Origin: Bacillota bacterium
GTDB taxonomy: Bacteria; Bacillota; Proteinivoracia; UBA4975
Assembly (NCBI GenBank): GCA_012523545.1
Contig: JAAYIH010000006.1
Span: 1 to 50,443, forward strand
Direction: 5' to 3'
DNA: 50,443 bases
Below the pieces are notes generated by a model. That model saw only the letters and a list, made by a program, of their open reading frames with translations, was not told the origin of the DNA and did not search any database. This document shows positions 1,304 through 8,226 of this stretch, piece by piece. The position numbers and the translations under genes were made by a program. How positions within the stretch are numbered: the first letter of the stretch is position 1; the number at the start of each line of letters is the position of its first letter.

Positions 1304-2364
1304 CAGGCCACCCTCCTTCTGCGGAGCAGGTAGAGGAAGAAAGGCCCGCCCACCAGGGCGGTAATCATGCCCACAGGCAGTTCCAGCGGCGCCAGCAGCA
1401 CCCTGGCCAGCAGGTCGGCCAGGGCCAGGAACACCGCCCCGGCCAGGGCCGCCGCCGGCAGCAGCCGGCGGTGCACCGGTCCCCCGATGAGGCGCACGGC
1501 ATGGGGGACCACCAAACCCACAAAACCGATGAGGCCGCATATCGAGACGGCCGCCGCCGTCACTAGGGCGGCAGCCCAGAGCAGTCGGCCCTTAACCCGT
1601 TCGACGTCGACGCCCAGGTAGTATGCCTGTTCTTCGCCTACGGCCAGGGCGTCCAGTTCCCGGGCATGCCAGAGCATGACGCTGCCGCCCGCCAGCAAAA
1701 AGGGCAGGATGCCGGCGACGTGCAGCCAATTGCGTCCCGAAAAGCCGCCCATCATCCAGAACACCACCTGTTGCAGCTGCTGGCCGCTGAAGAATATCAG
1801 CAGGGACAGGATGGCGCCCAGAAAGGTGCTGACGGCCACACCGGCCAGCAACATGCCGGCAGTGGACCGGCCCCCGCTGCCGGCCAGGCTGTAGACCAGC
1901 ACCAGGGAACCAATGCCGCCGGCAAAGGCCGCCAGGGGGATGGCAAAGGCGCCCAGCGCATTCCAGGCCAGTCCCGTCAGCATTGCCGCCGCCGCGCCCA
2001 CGGCGGCGCCGGAGGAAACGCCCAGGATATAGGGATCGGCCAGGGGATTCTTAAACAGCCCCTGCATGGTGCTCCCGGCCAGGGACAGGCTCGCCCCCAC
2101 CAGCATGGCAGCGATGGTGCGGGGCAGGCGCAGGCGCAACACGATGACAGCCCAGGTTCCGGGAATGTCACCGCCGAAATTCTGCCAGGCGGGCCGGGCC
2201 AGCACCCTGCCCAGGGCCCGCACCGGCGGCGCTGCCATAATCTTCAGGATATCCGCCACGGGAATGGCCACCGAGCCGATGCCGACGCAGGCAATGAGCA
2301 CAAAGAGCAGGAGCAGGGCCAGGGTGAGGCAAACCCCGGTCCCGGATGCTTTCTTCCCCGCCAT
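1303..2364 (-). CDS. btuC: Corrinoid ABC transporter permease (FecCD family)
   Basis: Inner-membrane permease of 353 aa with about ten hydrophobic helices, a normal size for the family. Family signatures visible are RLPRTIAAMLVGASLSLAG followed by MQGLFKNPLADPYILGVSSG, and near the C-terminus GLIGFVGLVVPHAVR, the cytoplasmic helix region that contacts BtuD. The start is taken as ATG 2364, which overlaps the btuF stop in a TGATG; an in-frame GTG at 2367 is an alternative. The 3' end overlaps btuD in the same way, so the three genes look translationally coupled. Confidence 0.93.
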   Translation of the reverse strand: MAGKKASGTGVCLTLALLLLFVLIACVGIGSVAIPVADILKIMAAPPVRALGRVLARPAWQNFGGDIPGTWAVIVLRLRLPRTIAAMLVGASLSLAGSTMQGLFKNPLADPYILGVSSGAAVGAAAAMLTGLAWNALGAFAIPLAAFAGGIGSLVLVYSLAGSGGRSTAGMLLAGVAVSTFLGAILSLLIFFSGQQLQQVVFWMMGGFSGRNWLHVAGILPFLLAGGSVMLWHARELDALAVGEEQAYYLGVDVERVKGRLLWAAALVTAAAVSICGLIGFVGLVVPHAVRLIGGPVHRRLLPAAALAGAVFLALADLLARVLLAPLELPVGMITALVGGPFFLYLLRRRRVA

Positions 2365-3260
2365 CACTTAAACTTGTCCGGGTGGAAGAGCCGGGCCAGT
2401 TCCTCCACCGCATCCGTCACCCGGGGGCCCGTCCGGCTGATGATGTCGGGGTCGATGAAGTAGATCCGCCCTTGCTGCACAGCCTTCACCGCTTCCCAGC
2501 CTTCCCGCTGGGCAAAGGATTCCACCGGCCAGGGCTCGTAGTAGCCGTGGATTATAATGTCGGGGTTGCGGGCCAGCACTTCCTCTTCCTGGATTTCGGT
2601 CCAGCGGGAAATGCCCCAGGCCAGGTTCCTGCCCCCGGCCCAGGCAATGATCTCGTCGATAAAGGTATCCTCCCCGGCTGTCCAGATGCCGGGATACCAG
2701 TTCTCATAGAAGACCACCGGCCGCTCATCCGCCTCCAGCTCCCCCAGGGCCTCGGCCACGGCGGCAAGGCGGTTCTTCATGGCGGTCACCAGCTCTTCGC
2801 CGGCCTGCTCCTCGCCAATGGCCCTGGCCAGGAGCAGGATGTTGGCATAAATTTCCTCAAAGGTCATGGGGTCCAGGGCCAGCACGGGAATGCCCAGGTC
2901 CTCCAGCGCCTCCACCGTCTCTTTGTGCAGGCTGGCCGCCACGACCAGGTCGGGCTCAAGGGCGACGATGGCCTCGAGGTTGGGACCGTCAAAGTCGCCC
3001 ACCCGGGGAACATCCAGCGCGGCCTCGGGGTAATTGCAGTAAGCCGAAACCCCCACCACCAGTTCCCCGGCCCCCAGGGCAAACATAATCTCGGTTACCG
3101 AAGGCACCAGGGATACTACCTTCTGGGCCGGCTCTTCCAGGGTTACTTCCCGGCCAAAGTCATCCACCAGGGTCAGCGTCCCCGGTTCTTCCTGTTGCCG
3201 GGTGCAACCTCCCAACAGCAAGGCAAAGACCAGTATCGCGCACACCAATGTCTTCTTCAT
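2364..3260 (-). CDS. btuF: Corrinoid-binding lipoprotein of ABC transporter (BtuF-like)
   Basis: Extracytoplasmic substrate-binding protein of 298 aa. A lipoprotein signal peptide is visible: MKK, a hydrophobic core, then lipobox LLGGC with the lipid-anchor Cys at 19. The mature part is a class III (helical-backbone) binding protein, with PAQKVVSLVPSVTEIMFALG early and an EPDLVVAA strand typical of BtuF/FhuD folds. The frame is open upstream to 3347, but ATG 3260 is preceded by GGAG at good spacing and yields the signal peptide. It is the first gene of the operon, 138 bases downstream of the cobalamin riboswitch. Confidence 0.92.
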   Translation of the reverse strand: MKKTLVCAILVFALLLGGCTRQQEEPGTLTLVDDFGREVTLEEPAQKVVSLVPSVTEIMFALGAGELVVGVSAYCNYPEAALDVPRVGDFDGPNLEAIVALEPDLVVAASLHKETVEALEDLGIPVLALDPMTFEEIYANILLLARAIGEEQAGEELVTAMKNRLAAVAEALGELEADERPVVFYENWYPGIWTAGEDTFIDEIIAWAGGRNLAWGISRWTEIQEEEVLARNPDIIIHGYYEPWPVESFAQREGWEAVKAVQQGRIYFIDPDIISRTGPRVTDAVEELARLFHPDKFK

Positions 3261-3291
3261 GCTTCTGTCTCCTCTCGTTATCTTGACGACA

Positions 3292-3326
3292 AAACACAAA
3301 AAACCCCCACCGCACAGGTCAGGGGT
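3292..3326 (-). terminator. Riboswitch-associated intrinsic terminator (attenuator)
   Basis: On the minus strand ACCCC-TG-ACC, loop TGTGC, GGT-G-GGGGT is followed by a run of T (3302-3292). It sits between the cobalamin riboswitch and btuF, with no gene to end, so it is best read as the expression platform. A second small hairpin (CCGGG/CCCGG, 3330-3344) lies just upstream and may take part in the antiterminator. Confidence 0.75.
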
Positions 3327-3398
3327 CAACCGGGCGCAACCCGGCAATTGACAAGCATGTAACGTACCCCCCTTTCTCCGCGAAGGAACAGTACATCA

Positions 3399-3558
3399 GG
3401 ACTCAGGCAGGTCTCCTGGCTTCCGGCTCATCTCCGACCGCCTTCCCACGCCCCGTGGGCGCAGTGGCCGCTGGTCGTATTCCATCCGGTTACAGTGGCG
3501 GGACCGCCCGGGACTTTCACCCGGTTCCCTATTCTCCCCCGCAGGGGCACCTGAATCC
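3399..3558 (-). promoter_or_regulatory. Cobalamin riboswitch
   Basis: The minus strand carries the hallmark pieces in order: GGGTGAAAGTCCCGG, CCCGCCACTGTAACCGG, and the B12 box AGCCAGGAGACCTGCC. The outer P1 helix closes the element: GGATTCAGG (3558-3550) pairs with CCTGAGTCC (3407-3399), nine pairs with one G-U. Such elements lower expression of cobalamin uptake genes when adenosylcobalamin is bound. It controls btuFCD. Confidence 0.95.
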
Positions 3559-3581
3559 GACGCTATTGATTTGTCTTTTTT

Positions 3582-3643: not shown

Positions 3644-3667
3644 TGATGTGCAAAGCAATAGCGGAAC

Positions 3668-3815
3668 GCTTCGTTAGGTGAGGTTCCTTGCATGAGACAG
3701 GCTGCTGCCCGGAAATGTCGAGAGACGCCAACGGGTAGAGCAGAACCCATCGGCTTAAGGTGGATTCTAAGGCAGCTGAGCCCCAGGCTCTATGCATGCA
3801 AGTGCCAAAGCCCGG
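3668..3815 (+). promoter_or_regulatory. M-box (ykoK leader) magnesium riboswitch
   Basis: Conserved M-box blocks are present in order: TTCGTTAGGTGAGGTTCCT, GCTGCTGCCCGGAAA, GAGAGACGCCAACGGGT, CATCGGCTTAAGGTG, CAGCTGAGCC, and GTGCCAAAGC at the 3' side. CTTGCATG (3687-3694) pairs with CATGCAAG (3795-3802), matching the long closing helix of the family. M-boxes fold on Mg2+ and shut down Mg2+ transporter genes; the next gene is mgtE. Confidence 0.95.
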
Positions 3816-3844
3816 ACAAGGGGGTTATTTTTCATGCTCTTTTT

Positions 3845-3955: not shown

Positions 3956-5317
3956 ATGACCGAAAGGATCACCACCCTGCTCGAGGAGCACAAACTTACC
4001 CAACTCAAGGAACTGCTCAATGAAGAATTGGCCTTCCAGGAACTTTCGGAACTGCTGGAGCAGTTTCCCCCCACGGAACAAGTGGTGTTGTTCCGCCTCC
4101 TGGAAAAGGATACCGCTTTGGAAATTTTCGAGCTCATGGAACCGGCCCAGCAAAAAGACCTGCTGGCTGCCTTCACCGACGCCGAGGTAATCGAGCTCTT
4201 TTCCGGCATCGACCCCTCGGACCAGGTCCGCCTGCTGGGCGAACTGCCGGCCAAGGTGGCCAAGGAACTGCTACGCTCAATTCCCCAGGATGTTCGCGAG
4301 TCTGCCGCCATCCTCATGGGCTTTCGGCCGGGCACTGTGGGCCGGGTCATGTCCCCCCACTACCTGCGCCTGCGCCGTGACGACACCGTCGGCCAGGCCC
4401 TGGAAAAAATTCGCGCCCTCAAGCCCGACCGGGAAGTGCTGCTGGACATCTGGGTCACCGATCAGCACCGGATTTTAGAGGGAGTAGTCACCCTGCGCGA
4501 CCTGGTCCTGGCTGACCCAGACGCAAAAATCGGGGAAATTATGGACGACGACGTGGTCTTCGTCACCGCCGACACCGACCGGGAAGAAGCCGTCAACATC
4601 CTCAAGAAGTTCGACCTGGTCAGCCTGCCGGTGGTGGATTCGGAAAACCGCCTGCTGGGCGTCCTGGAACACGACCGGGCCCTGGACATCATGCAGGAAG
4701 AAGCCACCGCCGACCTGCTGGAAAAGGGCGGGGTCATCGCCCTGCAGAAGCGGGAAGAAAGCCTCAGCCAGCGCCTGGTGCACGGTTCCATCCGCCAGGC
4801 CTTGGCAGTAAGACTGCCCTTCCTGTTCATCACCATGCTGGGCGGACTGTTAGCCGGCTTGATTATCAGCCGGTTTGAACACGCCCTCAGCCAGGTCCTG
4901 GCCCTGACCTTCTTCCTGCCCATCGTCATGGACATGGGCGGCAATGTAGGTACCCAGTCCACCACCATCTTCACCCGCAGCCTCGTCCTGGGGCACATCC
5001 GCCCCAACAAATTTCTCGGGGCCCTGCTCAAGGAAATATCCCGGGGCATAACCATCGGCGCCATTGTCGGCAGCCTCACCGGCATCGTTGCCTCTGTCTG
5101 GCAGGGCAACGCCCAGCTGGGCCTTGTCGTGGGCCTCGCCATATTGTGTACAGTTACCCTCGGTTCAACCCTGGGCTTCCTGATTCCCTGGCTGCTGTTC
5201 AAACTCAGGCTGGACCAGGCCGCCGGCGCCGCCCCTATCCTCACCACCCTCAAGGACATCACCGGCTTGCTAATCTATTTCTACCTGGCTGCTTTTATTT
5301 TAGGGCTGGCATTGTAA
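3956..5317 (+). CDS. mgtE: Magnesium transporter MgtE
   Basis: Mg2+ channel/transporter of 453 aa, the usual MgtE length. Order of domains: N-terminal helical MgtE_N superhelix (about 20-130), two CBS domains (about 135-260) that sense cytosolic Mg2+, a connecting helix, and a five-helix membrane domain (about 280-450). The membrane signature FLPIVMDMGGNVGTQS is intact, as is the pore region APILTTLKD with the ion-coordinating Asp. The start ATG 3956 follows AGGAGG at correct spacing. The M-box riboswitch upstream gives transcriptional or translational control in addition to gating. It stands alone and is closed by a palindromic terminator. Confidence 0.97.
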   Translation: MTERITTLLEEHKLTQLKELLNEELAFQELSELLEQFPPTEQVVLFRLLEKDTALEIFELMEPAQQKDLLAAFTDAEVIELFSGIDPSDQVRLLGELPAKVAKELLRSIPQDVRESAAILMGFRPGTVGRVMSPHYLRLRRDDTVGQALEKIRALKPDREVLLDIWVTDQHRILEGVVTLRDLVLADPDAKIGEIMDDDVVFVTADTDREEAVNILKKFDLVSLPVVDSENRLLGVLEHDRALDIMQEEATADLLEKGGVIALQKREESLSQRLVHGSIRQALAVRLPFLFITMLGGLLAGLIISRFEHALSQVLALTFFLPIVMDMGGNVGTQSTTIFTRSLVLGHIRPNKFLGALLKEISRGITIGAIVGSLTGIVASVWQGNAQLGLVVGLAILCTVTLGSTLGFLIPWLLFKLRLDQAAGAAPILTTLKDITGLLIYFYLAAFILGLAL

Positions 5318-5831: not shown

Positions 5832-5864
5832 GGCAACAAAACAAAGGGAGGCCTCCTGCCTCCC
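5832..5864 (-). terminator. Terminator of the DUF1538/P-II operon
   Basis: Minus strand GGGAGGC (5864-5858), loop AGGAG, GCCTCCC (5852-5846), then a T-rich tail to 5832. It follows the second P-II-like gene by a few bases. Confidence 0.85.
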
Positions 5865-5870
5865 CGCTTG

Positions 5871-6209
5871 TTATTGGGAGCAATCTTCCAAATGGCAGAT
5901 ACCCACCGTCCGCTCCACATTGAGGACGAAGGCGATGCCCTTGCCCGCCTCCTGGAGGCCCACTTCGTCGGAAATGGCCTGCAGCACCTGTTCGGTCTTG
6001 GTGTGATCGATAAGGGTGAGCACTATGTCCTTTTCCGGCTCAATGGGGATGCCAAAAAGCTTGGCAGTCTCATGGATGCCGGAACCGCGGCCGTTGATGA
6101 TGGTGCCGCCTTCGGCCCCGGCCCGCTTGGACGCCTCCACCACGTCAATGGCGGCGCCCCGGTTGACTATGGTTACAATCAAGTCGAACTTGATTTTGTC
6201 GGCAGTCAT
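5871..6209 (-). CDS. P-II-like signalling protein (second copy)
   Basis: 112 aa, P-II (GlnB/GlnK-like) fold by pattern: strand FDLIVTIVN, helix with VVEASKRAGAEGG, then TIINGRGSG where classical P-II proteins have the T-loop base, a central EKDIVLTLID strand, helix TEQVLQAI, and AGKGIAFVLNVERTVGI matching the TGKIGDGKIF-type region. The classical T-loop with the uridylylated Tyr is not evident, so this is a divergent P-II member and need not sense nitrogen. The ATG follows GGAGGAGG. It is the last gene of the DUF1538 operon, 30 bases after the other P-II-like gene. P-II proteins commonly gate transporters, which suggests that DUF1538 proteins are the partners (inference). Confidence 0.8.
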   Translation of the reverse strand: MTADKIKFDLIVTIVNRGAAIDVVEASKRAGAEGGTIINGRGSGIHETAKLFGIPIEPEKDIVLTLIDHTKTEQVLQAISDEVGLQEAGKGIAFVLNVERTVGICHLEDCSQ

Positions 6210-6239
6210 GATAAATACCTCCTCCGGATTAAAGCCATA

Positions 6240-6575
6240 TTACACCATTGAGCCAAGATGTGCAACCCCGTATACTTTCGCCAGGTCCAGGACAAAGCCG
6301 ATTCCCTTGCCCGGCTTATCGAGGTTGCCCGTCTCGGTGACCGCCGCCAGGACTTTATCCGCCAGGGACGCCTCGACGCTGACGAGAACCAGCTCCTTTT
6401 CGGGCTCGTAGTCGATGCCGAGAATGGTCTCGTAAATGCTCCTGGGCGCAGTCCCCCGCCCGTGGATTATGGTCCCGCCGTGGGCCCCCGCCGCTTTGGC
6501 GGCGGCCACGATCTTGCTGGCCATTCCCTTGCCGACAATTACACCAATTAACTTATGCCCGCTGCCGGACGGCAT
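6240..6575 (-). CDS. P-II-like signalling protein (first copy)
   Basis: 111 aa, paralogue of the next gene: LIGVIVGKGMASKIVAAAKA, then GGTIIHGRGTAPRSIYETIL, EKELVLVSVEASLADKVLAAV and PGKGIGFVLDLAKVYGVAHL. The T-loop segment is different in length and sequence from the second copy (it contains a Tyr in RSIYETIL), so the two may form homotrimers with distinct ligands or a heterotrimer. ATG 6575 is chosen over the upstream frame because AAGGAG precedes it. The start overlaps the end of the DUF1538 gene by 23 bases, indicating translational coupling with the membrane proteins. Confidence 0.8.
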   Translation of the reverse strand: MPSGSGHKLIGVIVGKGMASKIVAAAKAAGAHGGTIIHGRGTAPRSIYETILGIDYEPEKELVLVSVEASLADKVLAAVTETGNLDKPGKGIGFVLDLAKVYGVAHLGSMV

Positions 6576-7311
6576 CTCTCTCTCCTTCCTTTCCTTTGGC
6601 TTCGCTCCTGGCATAAAGAGCGCCAAGAATTAAGAGGGACAGAATCGGCACCATGGCCACCAGCGCTATCATGCCGAACCCGTCGAAAAGGGGATTGCTC
6701 CCCGGCACGGCCTCGCTGCTTCCCACAGTAAACGCCAGGATAAAAGTGGCGATCATAGGGCCGGTGACAACTCCGCCGGAATCAAAGGCCAGCCCCACAA
6801 AGAGTGGTTTTACCTTGCGGGCCAGGATAAATATAATCAGATAGCCCGGGACAATAAAGTACCACAGGGATATGCCCAGCAGTATCCTGAGCATGGACAG
6901 GGCTACCGCCACCGCCACCCCGATGGAGAGGAAGTACAGCATCACTTTATTGTGGATGTAACCCCCGGTGACTTTCTCCACCTCCATGTTCAGGACCTGG
7001 ATGGCGGGCTCGGCCATGGTAACCACAAAACCCAGGACAAAGCCGATGGGAACCAGAATCCAGTTGTAACTGGCCCCGCCCAAAGCACTGCCAATGGCCT
7101 TGCCCATTTTGTCAAAACCGACATTTACCCCCTGCATGAACAGGGTGAGGCCGATAAAAGCAATCAATATGCCGCGAAAAAACCGGAGTACCTGGCGCCG
7201 GGGGAGCTTCCAGTAAAAATAGTTAAAGAACACGTAAAATACAATCAGGGGTAAAAAGGCCAGGGTGACGTCCACGATGGTTTGGGTAAACCCGGCAAAC
7301 AATTTGGCCAT
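6553..7311 (-). CDS. DUF1538 membrane protein, second subunit
   Basis: 252 aa, about six to seven transmembrane helices. It carries the DUF1538 core: GFVVTMAEPAIQVLNMEVEKV, then GGYIHNK, and FVGLAFDSGGVVTGPM with the conserved Asp-Ser-Gly-Gly. DUF1538 proteins are often one polypeptide with two such repeats; here the two repeats are separate genes. The start is ATG 7311 in a TGATG overlap with the preceding DUF1538 gene (GTG at 7314 is an alternative). The C-terminal tail is charged (KGKEGERDAVRQR) and cytoplasmic by the positive-inside rule, a plausible docking site for the P-II-like proteins encoded next. The substrate is unknown. Confidence 0.85.
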   Translation of the reverse strand: MAKLFAGFTQTIVDVTLAFLPLIVFYVFFNYFYWKLPRRQVLRFFRGILIAFIGLTLFMQGVNVGFDKMGKAIGSALGGASYNWILVPIGFVLGFVVTMAEPAIQVLNMEVEKVTGGYIHNKVMLYFLSIGVAVAVALSMLRILLGISLWYFIVPGYLIIFILARKVKPLFVGLAFDSGGVVTGPMIATFILAFTVGSSEAVPGSNPLFDGFGMIALVAMVPILSLLILGALYARSEAKGKEGERDAVRQRA

Positions 7312-8000
7312 CACTTGAAGATCACCCCCAGCAGCAGCACGGCAAGAATGGGGCCGACGGAACCCAGGCCCACAAAGCCAAAGCTGTCCTGGGAAGCGGT
7401 CCGGGACCCCCGGATTGCCGAGACCCCCACGCCCAGGGAGAGGATAAAGGGCACCGTCACAGGACCGGTGGTAGCCCCTCCGGCATCAAAGGAGACGGCA
7501 AGAAATTCGGGGGCTGTGAAGATGGCCAGGGCAAAAACCAGGATATAGCCCACCAGCAACAGTTTGAGCAGCGAAATGTTGAAGATTACCCGGAGCATGG
7601 CCAGGGCCAGATATATCCCCACTCCCAGGGCCACCACCGCCACCAGGAGGTAACGGGAAATCTCTCCGCCCGAAACAACGTCAACCTGGTTGGCCAGCAC
7701 CTGCACCCCCGGCTCCGCCACCGTCACGGCAAAGCCCACGGCAATGGCAAAAGCCACAATAAACCAGAGTTTGCCGCTTTGGAGCAGGGACTTGCCCACC
7801 AGTTCGCCGATGGCCAGCAGACTTTCCTTGACCCCGATTAAAAAGAGGGTAAGGCCGGCCATGGTCATGAGCACGCTGAACAAAAAAATCAGGAATTCGG
7901 ACCATGGCTGCCGTACCACGGTTATCTGCAACAAAATAACCGCTGCAGTAATCGGTAATACAGAGCGCACTACTTCGTTGACTGTCTCCTTTACACTCAC
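7311..8000 (-). CDS. DUF1538 membrane protein, first subunit
   Basis: 229 aa from the GTG at 8000, which follows GGAGG with seven bases between; the frame is open further upstream but without a better signal. It has about seven hydrophobic helices and the same core as its neighbour: GFAVTVAEPGVQVLANQVDV, then GGEIS, and FLAVSFDAGGATTGPVTVPF. It is presumed to form a transporter or channel with the second subunit. It is the first gene of a four-gene operon (DUF1538, DUF1538, P-II-like, P-II-like) directly downstream of a c-di-AMP riboswitch. That context suggests control of ion or osmolyte flux (inference). Confidence 0.85.
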   Translation of the reverse strand: MSVKETVNEVVRSVLPITAAVILLQITVVRQPWSEFLIFLFSVLMTMAGLTLFLIGVKESLLAIGELVGKSLLQSGKLWFIVAFAIAVGFAVTVAEPGVQVLANQVDVVSGGEISRYLLVAVVALGVGIYLALAMLRVIFNISLLKLLLVGYILVFALAIFTAPEFLAVSFDAGGATTGPVTVPFILSLGVGVSAIRGSRTASQDSFGFVGLGSVGPILAVLLLGVIFK

Positions 8001-8040
8001 CACAACACCTCCAACGATGACGAGTGGGGACCCCCGGCAA

Positions 8041-8082
8041 GAAAAAGCCACAAAAGGAAATATATCCTTGCCTTTTGTGGCT
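8041..8082 (-). terminator. Expression-platform terminator of the c-di-AMP riboswitch
   Basis: Minus strand AGCCACAAAAGG (8082-8071), a 13-base loop, CCTTTTGTGGCT (8057-8046) and then T5. It lies between the riboswitch and the first DUF1538 gene, so readthrough must be regulated. Confidence 0.85.
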
Positions 8083-8086
8083 GCAT

Positions 8087-8186
8087 GCTTACGGGGTTAG
8101 CTGTCGGGTTAGGGTAACCGCCCCTTTTCCAATCTGGAAATTCACCCCAGGGAATTGGGTCCCCCCGCTTCGAATCCGAATACAGC
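8087..8186 (-). promoter_or_regulatory. c-di-AMP riboswitch (ydaO-yuaA class)
   Basis: The minus strand shows the conserved blocks of the ydaO class: GCGGGGGGACCCAATT, GGGGTGAAT, a variable arm, GGTTACCCTAACCCG and finally ACAGCTAACCCCGTAAGC. These match the two ligand sites of the family in order and spacing. In this class c-di-AMP binding favours termination. A strong intrinsic terminator follows directly, and the operon downstream encodes DUF1538 and P-II-like proteins. Confidence 0.93.
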
Positions 8187-8195
8187 TTTTTTTTA

Positions 8196-8226
8196 ATTAT
8201 AGCATATCAGAGGGGGGAGGATACAA
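8196..8226 (-). promoter_or_regulatory. Promoter of the c-di-AMP riboswitch operon
   Basis: Extended -10 TGCTATAAT on the minus strand (TATAAT at 8201-8196), with a poor -35 (TTGTAT at 8226-8221, 19-base spacer). It sits about ten bases upstream of the riboswitch, immediately after the copA stop. Confidence 0.65.

Follow-up and report, generated by a model that had tools for sequence, protein, structure and literature searches.

A c-di-AMP riboswitch of the ydaO/yuaA class before an operon of UmpAB-like and divergent P-II-like proteins

The operon and its leader

We analyzed a 50,443-nucleotide (nt) stretch of DNA from a Bacillota bacterium (NCBI GenBank assembly GCA_012523545.1, contig JAAYIH010000006.1; hereafter the window). 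On its minus strand lies an operon whose leader carries a cyclic di-AMP (c-di-AMP) riboswitch of the ydaO/yuaA class and whose four genes encode two DUF1538 membrane proteins and two P-II-like proteins (Table 1). An earlier note on this DNA had proposed this gene content, and the Pfam matches bear it out. The note had also described the genes as coupled by overlaps. This is true of the first three, which overlap by 1 nt (DUF1538-A/B) and 23 nt (DUF1538-B/P-II-1), but not of the last two: a 30-nt gap separates P-II-1 from P-II-2, which has its own ribosome-binding site. The hairpin proposed to terminate the operon is present, but hairpins of this type are no more common in the window than in shuffled sequence. 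At the other end of the operon, the promoter-like element has a weak -35 and was not listed by an automatic promoter scan.

Table 1. Features of the operon and its leader (positions in the window)
Feature	Position	Strand	Evidence or remark
Operon with leader	5845-8204	-	four co-directional genes, DUF1538-DUF1538-P-II-P-II
Extended -10 promoter-like element TGCTATAAT	8196-8204	-	between the stop of the upstream P-type ATPase and the aptamer; sequence
c-di-AMP (ydaO/yuaA) riboswitch aptamer, RF00379	8070-8197	-	cmscan, 74.9 bits; own model, 87.1 bits
Predicted antiterminator P1'	8080-8186	-	GCUGUAU (8186-8180) with AUGCAGC (8086-8080); predicted with ViennaRNA
Intrinsic terminator	8041-8082	-	12-bp stem and U-rich tail
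umpA-like DUF1538 membrane protein (DUF1538-A), 229 aa	7311-8000	-	GTG start, GGAGG 7 nt upstream; PF07556, E 4.8e-68
umpB-like DUF1538 membrane protein (DUF1538-B), 252 aa	6553-7311	-	PF07556, E 2.1e-71
P-II-like protein 1 (P-II-1), 111 aa	6240-6575	-	PF00543, E 4.2e-7, 30.7 bits
P-II-like protein 2 (P-II-2), 112 aa, better conserved of the pair	5871-6209	-	PF00543, E 2.1e-7, 31.6 bits; AlphaFold2; Foldseek
Terminator-like hairpin at operon end	5845-5865	-	8 pairs; statistically weak

The ydaO-class leader was confirmed with the Rfam covariance model. The match to RF00379 covered the full model (positions 1-134, E 1.2e-15), and its 74.9 bits compare with a gathering score of 38. We also built a model from 29 aptamers of the same phylum, the window's own included, with which the window aptamer scored 87.1 bits. 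All 31 invariant columns of this alignment are retained in the window, as are the core blocks GCGGGGG, GGGGUGAAU, and ACAGCUAACC, and the majority of changes in the helices are compensated. The intrinsic terminator of the earlier note also held up: its arms AGCCACAAAAGG (8082-8071) and CCUUUUGUGGCU (8057-8046) form the stem and are followed by the U-rich tail. Judged by aptamer identity, the RNA is a genuine ydaO-class c-di-AMP riboswitch, which would be expected to bind this ligand.

In B. subtilis, for example, ydaO/yuaA riboswitches lie upstream of kimA and ktrAB, and in B. thuringiensis one lies upstream of kdp. The window riboswitch has in common with this class the aptamer, a transcription terminator as expression platform, and an ion-transport target. 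It differs in that the target is a putative cation/proton antiporter with P-II genes, not a K+ importer, an osmolyte gene, or a cell-wall gene, and in that two near-invariant aptamer positions are altered.

The host genome (G000; 1.73 Mb in 55 contigs) encodes two DAC-domain proteins, CdaA before a glmM-like gene and DisA after radA, which are the usual surroundings of these synthases. With cdaA and disA present, the host very probably makes c-di-AMP. The genome has just two RF00379 elements. The second (contig C16, L103 3350-3564) precedes the gene for a 502-residue protein with Na_H_Exchanger (PF00999, E 1e-57) and TrkA_C domains, and a terminator hairpin with a U-run lies between the aptamer and this gene. 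Thus, both elements precede cation/proton antiporters, which belong to unrelated families. Among ∼90 RF00379 elements surveyed in other genomes of the phylum, four more had PF00999 targets; the other targets, recognized from sequence only, included kamA-like, SulP-like, and glycine-betaine-like genes and others. The elements before SulP-like anion transporter genes were those of L212, L219, L225, and L226 and probably those of L237, L258, and L260.

Direction of the switch

The aptamer helix P1 is short (GCU/AGC, nt 12-14/109-111). Folding with ViennaRNA predicted a competing helix, P1' (nt 12-18/112-118), that uses the 5' strand of P1 and captures the AGC at the foot of the terminator hairpin. 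In transcripts of 118-127 nt the antiterminator fold was the minimum (-35.5 versus -30.5 kcal/mol with P1 forced), and once the terminator was complete, the state with P1 and the full terminator reached -49.6 versus -47.2 kcal/mol for P1' plus a shortened terminator, energies that ignore pseudoknots and ligand. Because the candidate antiterminator competes with P1 for one strand and sequesters the base of the terminator, the leader is most likely a c-di-AMP OFF switch with a ligand-induced terminator. Transcription would start at the operon's own promoter and run through the riboswitch. At low c-di-AMP the nascent leader would fold P1' and RNA polymerase would read on; with c-di-AMP bound, P1 would form, the terminator base would be freed, and transcription would stop.

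Several points speak against this reading. In a third apo fold (AGCUGU/ACAGCU, -50.4 kcal/mol at 158 nt) the terminator is already free in the absence of ligand, so that the switch would depend on folding kinetics. The window aptamer has U at nt 16, where all 28 others have A, and a G is inserted at nt 37 (GGGGGGACCC versus GGGGGACCC; GGGGGG before ACCC), again at a position that is A in 28/28 others. Like these 28, the crystallized aptamer quoted in PMC5393176 has GCUGAA and five G's. The two deviations may reduce the affinity for c-di-AMP. Finally, an OFF switch on a K+ exporter is counter-intuitive and would fit better if Na+ were the main substrate.

The opposite direction would make physiological sense for a K+/H+ antiporter: c-di-AMP, which is high at high K+, would switch the exporter ON. 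In line with this, the characterized DUF1538 pair UmpAB exchanges K+ too (PMC5484666), and both riboswitches of the genome precede antiporters, which are efflux systems. We nevertheless regard an ON switch as unlikely because P1 is compatible with the complete terminator, the competing P1' being the helix that weakens it, and because known ydaO switches terminate with ligand, both B. subtilis ydaO (PMC5575661) and, in vitro, the Dehalobacter Na+/c-di-AMP tandem riboswitch (PMC9337991). Thus, ligand-induced termination remains our preferred direction.

Distribution of the riboswitch

DUF1538 was found in 138 of 399 genomes of the phylum and RF00379 in 260; 85 of the 138 have both. Yet RF00379 lies directly upstream of DUF1538 in only two of the 138, the window's genome and one distant genome (G110; aptamer L105 4249-4396 on the minus strand, DUF1538 start codon at 4180). 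There was no further RF00379 match in 80 named DUF1538 loci (794 kb), none upstream of DUF1538 in eight other family members of G110, and none in 12 other genomes of the class. The chance expectation for RF00379 before DUF1538 is roughly 0.01, which makes coincidence an improbable explanation of the second case; the window, however, was selected because it has the riboswitch. Through this one distant case the pairing narrowly escapes the refuting condition of the earlier note, that no other genome would show it. The census ruled out that DUF1538 genes in general have the riboswitch. The riboswitch before the antiporter/P-II operon is a rare local addition. For a known riboswitch class it is a new and rare target, although the absence of a prior mention of an antiporter or DUF1538 target is not proven.

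One other element adjoins the gene module. In G048, a c-di-AMP riboswitch (L091 4491-4663, 102 bits) lies 3' of the P-II genes and before an asparagine-synthase-like gene, and we assigned it to the latter. The umpA gene of the adjacent umpAB-P-II operon is truncated and has transposase-like genes beside it.

The orthologous locus of a sister genus (L085, G007) has kept the leader in part. The upstream ATPase is 78% identical, the promoter equivalent TGTTATACT stands at the corresponding place, and both terminator arms (2395-2432) have been retained, but there is no aptamer, and the locus has no Rfam match. Another short hairpin (CGGGGAGGGCGACCUUCCCCG) occupies the aptamer's place in this leader (2320-2474). 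Since promoter and terminator arms occur here without an aptamer, the aptamer must have been acquired or lost during the history of this family. Such a labile leader, together with two deviations where 28 other aptamers are invariant, would also fit an aptamer that is degenerate or altered in ligand specificity, the leader now being a fixed or otherwise controlled terminator. We consider this improbable: the remaining invariant positions are intact, most substitutions in the helices are compensated, and the score exceeds the gathering cut-off by 37 bits. A functional c-di-AMP OFF switch thus remains the better account of the leader.

The DUF1538 pair and its P-II-like partners

PF07556 matched over the full domain in both DUF1538 subunits (229 and 240 bits versus a cut-off of 22.6). 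One pair of this family is a published antiporter: the two UmpAB proteins of Halomonas zhaodongensis, cloned by themselves, heterodimerize and confer Na+(Li+,K+)/H+ antiport activity on E. coli KNabc, as a 2017 study showed (PMC5484666). The ion-transport role that the earlier note had proposed for DUF1538 is therefore better founded than its original argument; it is already known for a relative, and by analogy the window pair may transport cations as well. Both systems consist of an overlapping pair of half-size DUF1538 genes with full-length Pfam matches. In the window, however, two P-II genes follow and a riboswitch precedes the pair, whereas the cloned Halomonas fragment contained neither.

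We found no match of the DUF1538 sequence to solved PDB chains. An AlphaFold2 model of a fused DUF1538 homologue (m74f0a5948f88, L187; predicted local distance difference test [pLDDT] 84, predicted template modeling score [pTM] 0.83) has a helical membrane fold, predicted with confidence, which matched no PDB fold at E 0.001 (best E 0.017, template modeling score [TM] 0.18). DUF1538 thus possibly represents an unsolved transporter fold, of which a structure would be new.

Both P-II-like proteins score above the PF00543 gathering cut-off of 25 bits. The AlphaFold2 model of P-II-2 (pLDDT 84.7) has the PII fold with GlnK1 as best Foldseek match (E 5e-7, TM 0.65), and a profile search of the PDB with the P-II-like sequence recovered classical PII proteins and, marginally, SbtB. 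The B-loop motif of classical GlnB/GlnK, TGxxGDGKI (as defined in PMC4316997), occurred in none of 51 homologues. A PGKG-type loop stood in its place in 40 of them, and K60, aligned by profile to Lys-58 of PII, was conserved in 48. The P-II-like proteins are a divergent PII subfamily that has the GlnK/PII fold and lacks the canonical ATP B-loop.

We asked how constant the pairing is. Among 39 DUF1538 loci read in the phylum, one had a broken gene; in all 38 intact loci, P-II-like domains lay directly 3' of DUF1538, one or two in number and as separate genes or a tandem fusion. At one locus (G005, L093 2576-3182, minus strand), DUF1538 was interrupted by several stop codons and no P-II gene was detected alongside. 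P-II-like genes also followed DUF1538 in 76 of the best 80 named GTDB loci, among them representatives of Bacillota, Methanoculleus, Balneolales, Planctomycetaceae, and Pseudodesulfovibrio, and three plasmid loci (Pseudomonadota/Bacillota; two Alphaproteobacteria) had the same order. Many hosts of the named loci are alkaliphiles or halophiles, as expected for Na+/H+ antiport. The conserved unit across bacteria and archaea is thus DUF1538 plus P-II-like, and the riboswitch is not part of it. In the literature searched we found no paper that names DUF1538 and P-II together.

This near-constant adjacency suggests that the P-II-like proteins are dedicated regulators of the antiporter, and post-translational P-II control, as the earlier note had it, is plausible. 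P-II control of transporters is textbook knowledge for ammonium (GlnK-AmtB) and bicarbonate (SbtB-SbtA), where a P-II-fold protein is likewise encoded directly after its transporter. In contrast to these systems, DUF1538 is an unrelated transporter family, the P-II proteins are usually two or a tandem fusion, and TGxxGDGKI is missing. Because of the linkage and these precedents, we favor direct action: nucleotide-dependent contact of the P-II-like pair with the assembled antiporter would most likely set its activity, and the pair would not read c-di-AMP.

Some results count against a P-II-regulated antiporter. Four of the 80 named loci have no adjacent P-II gene (three from the Sutcliffiella/Bacillus horikoshii group, one Clostridium), and UmpAB from Halomonas needs no such partner for activity in E. 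coli (PMC5484666). The window proteins scored 108 bits with the NCBIfam UmpA model and 97 with the UmpB model, far under the equivalog cut-offs of 490 and 500. The pair is therefore a relative of UmpAB in the same family rather than an equivalog, and the transfer of substrate is uncertain. With one family pair assayed and such weak equivalog similarity, the P-II-like proteins might be functionally unlinked to UmpAB, or the pair might carry something other than monovalent cations. Against both stand an adjacency that is near-universal across phyla, fused and unfused, and the many alkaliphile and halophile hosts, and we give them little weight.

Least probable is the suggestion of the earlier note that c-di-AMP is a ligand of one or both P-II-like proteins and would thus act as a single signal on transcription and on the antiporter: the PII-type core fold is common to DarA/PstA, and a title cited in PMC9337991 states that c-di-AMP affects expression and activity of riboswitch-controlled B. 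subtilis KimA, but the PstA motif TKLxxxGGFLxxGNTT (PMC4316997) was absent from all 51 homologues, the B-loop is short, neither protein matched PF06153 at E 0.01, the PDB hits of the profile included no DarA/PstA, the genome has a DarA gene of its own elsewhere (PF06153, 159 bits, C30:5811-6131), and the module is present in lineages without the riboswitch. We thus rejected DarA/PstA as their identity.

We propose that the operon encodes a UmpAB-type two-subunit monovalent cation/proton antiporter with two dedicated P-II-family proteins, its transcription being turned OFF through the riboswitch and the antiporter being regulated by P-II; we put the probability of this explanation at about 0.6. 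For a wider proposal we see roughly even chances: UmpAB plus P-II would be a widespread, undescribed module, an antiporter of unsolved fold gated by nucleotide-sensing divergent P-II proteins, to which c-di-AMP control of transcription was added in this lineage. If so, two independent nucleotide inputs would act on one transporter. P-II control of a cation/proton antiporter is not described in the literature searched, and the module is a broader and more interesting result than the riboswitch. Its near-invariable linkage opens two questions to direct test: what small molecule gates UmpAB, and whether a P-II trimer makes contact with it. The riboswitch, for its part, would add cation/proton antiporters to the direct transcriptional targets of c-di-AMP, and an OFF switch on an exporter poses a sharp question of sign.

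Two further riboswitches lie back to back in the window: a cobalamin riboswitch (3389-3569, minus strand, 123 bits) stands upstream of a Peripla_BP_2 gene (2364-3347), and mgtE (3956-5317) is preceded by an M-box Mg2+ riboswitch (3663-3830, plus strand, 136.6 bits). Three riboswitches for different ligands are thus found inside 5 kb.

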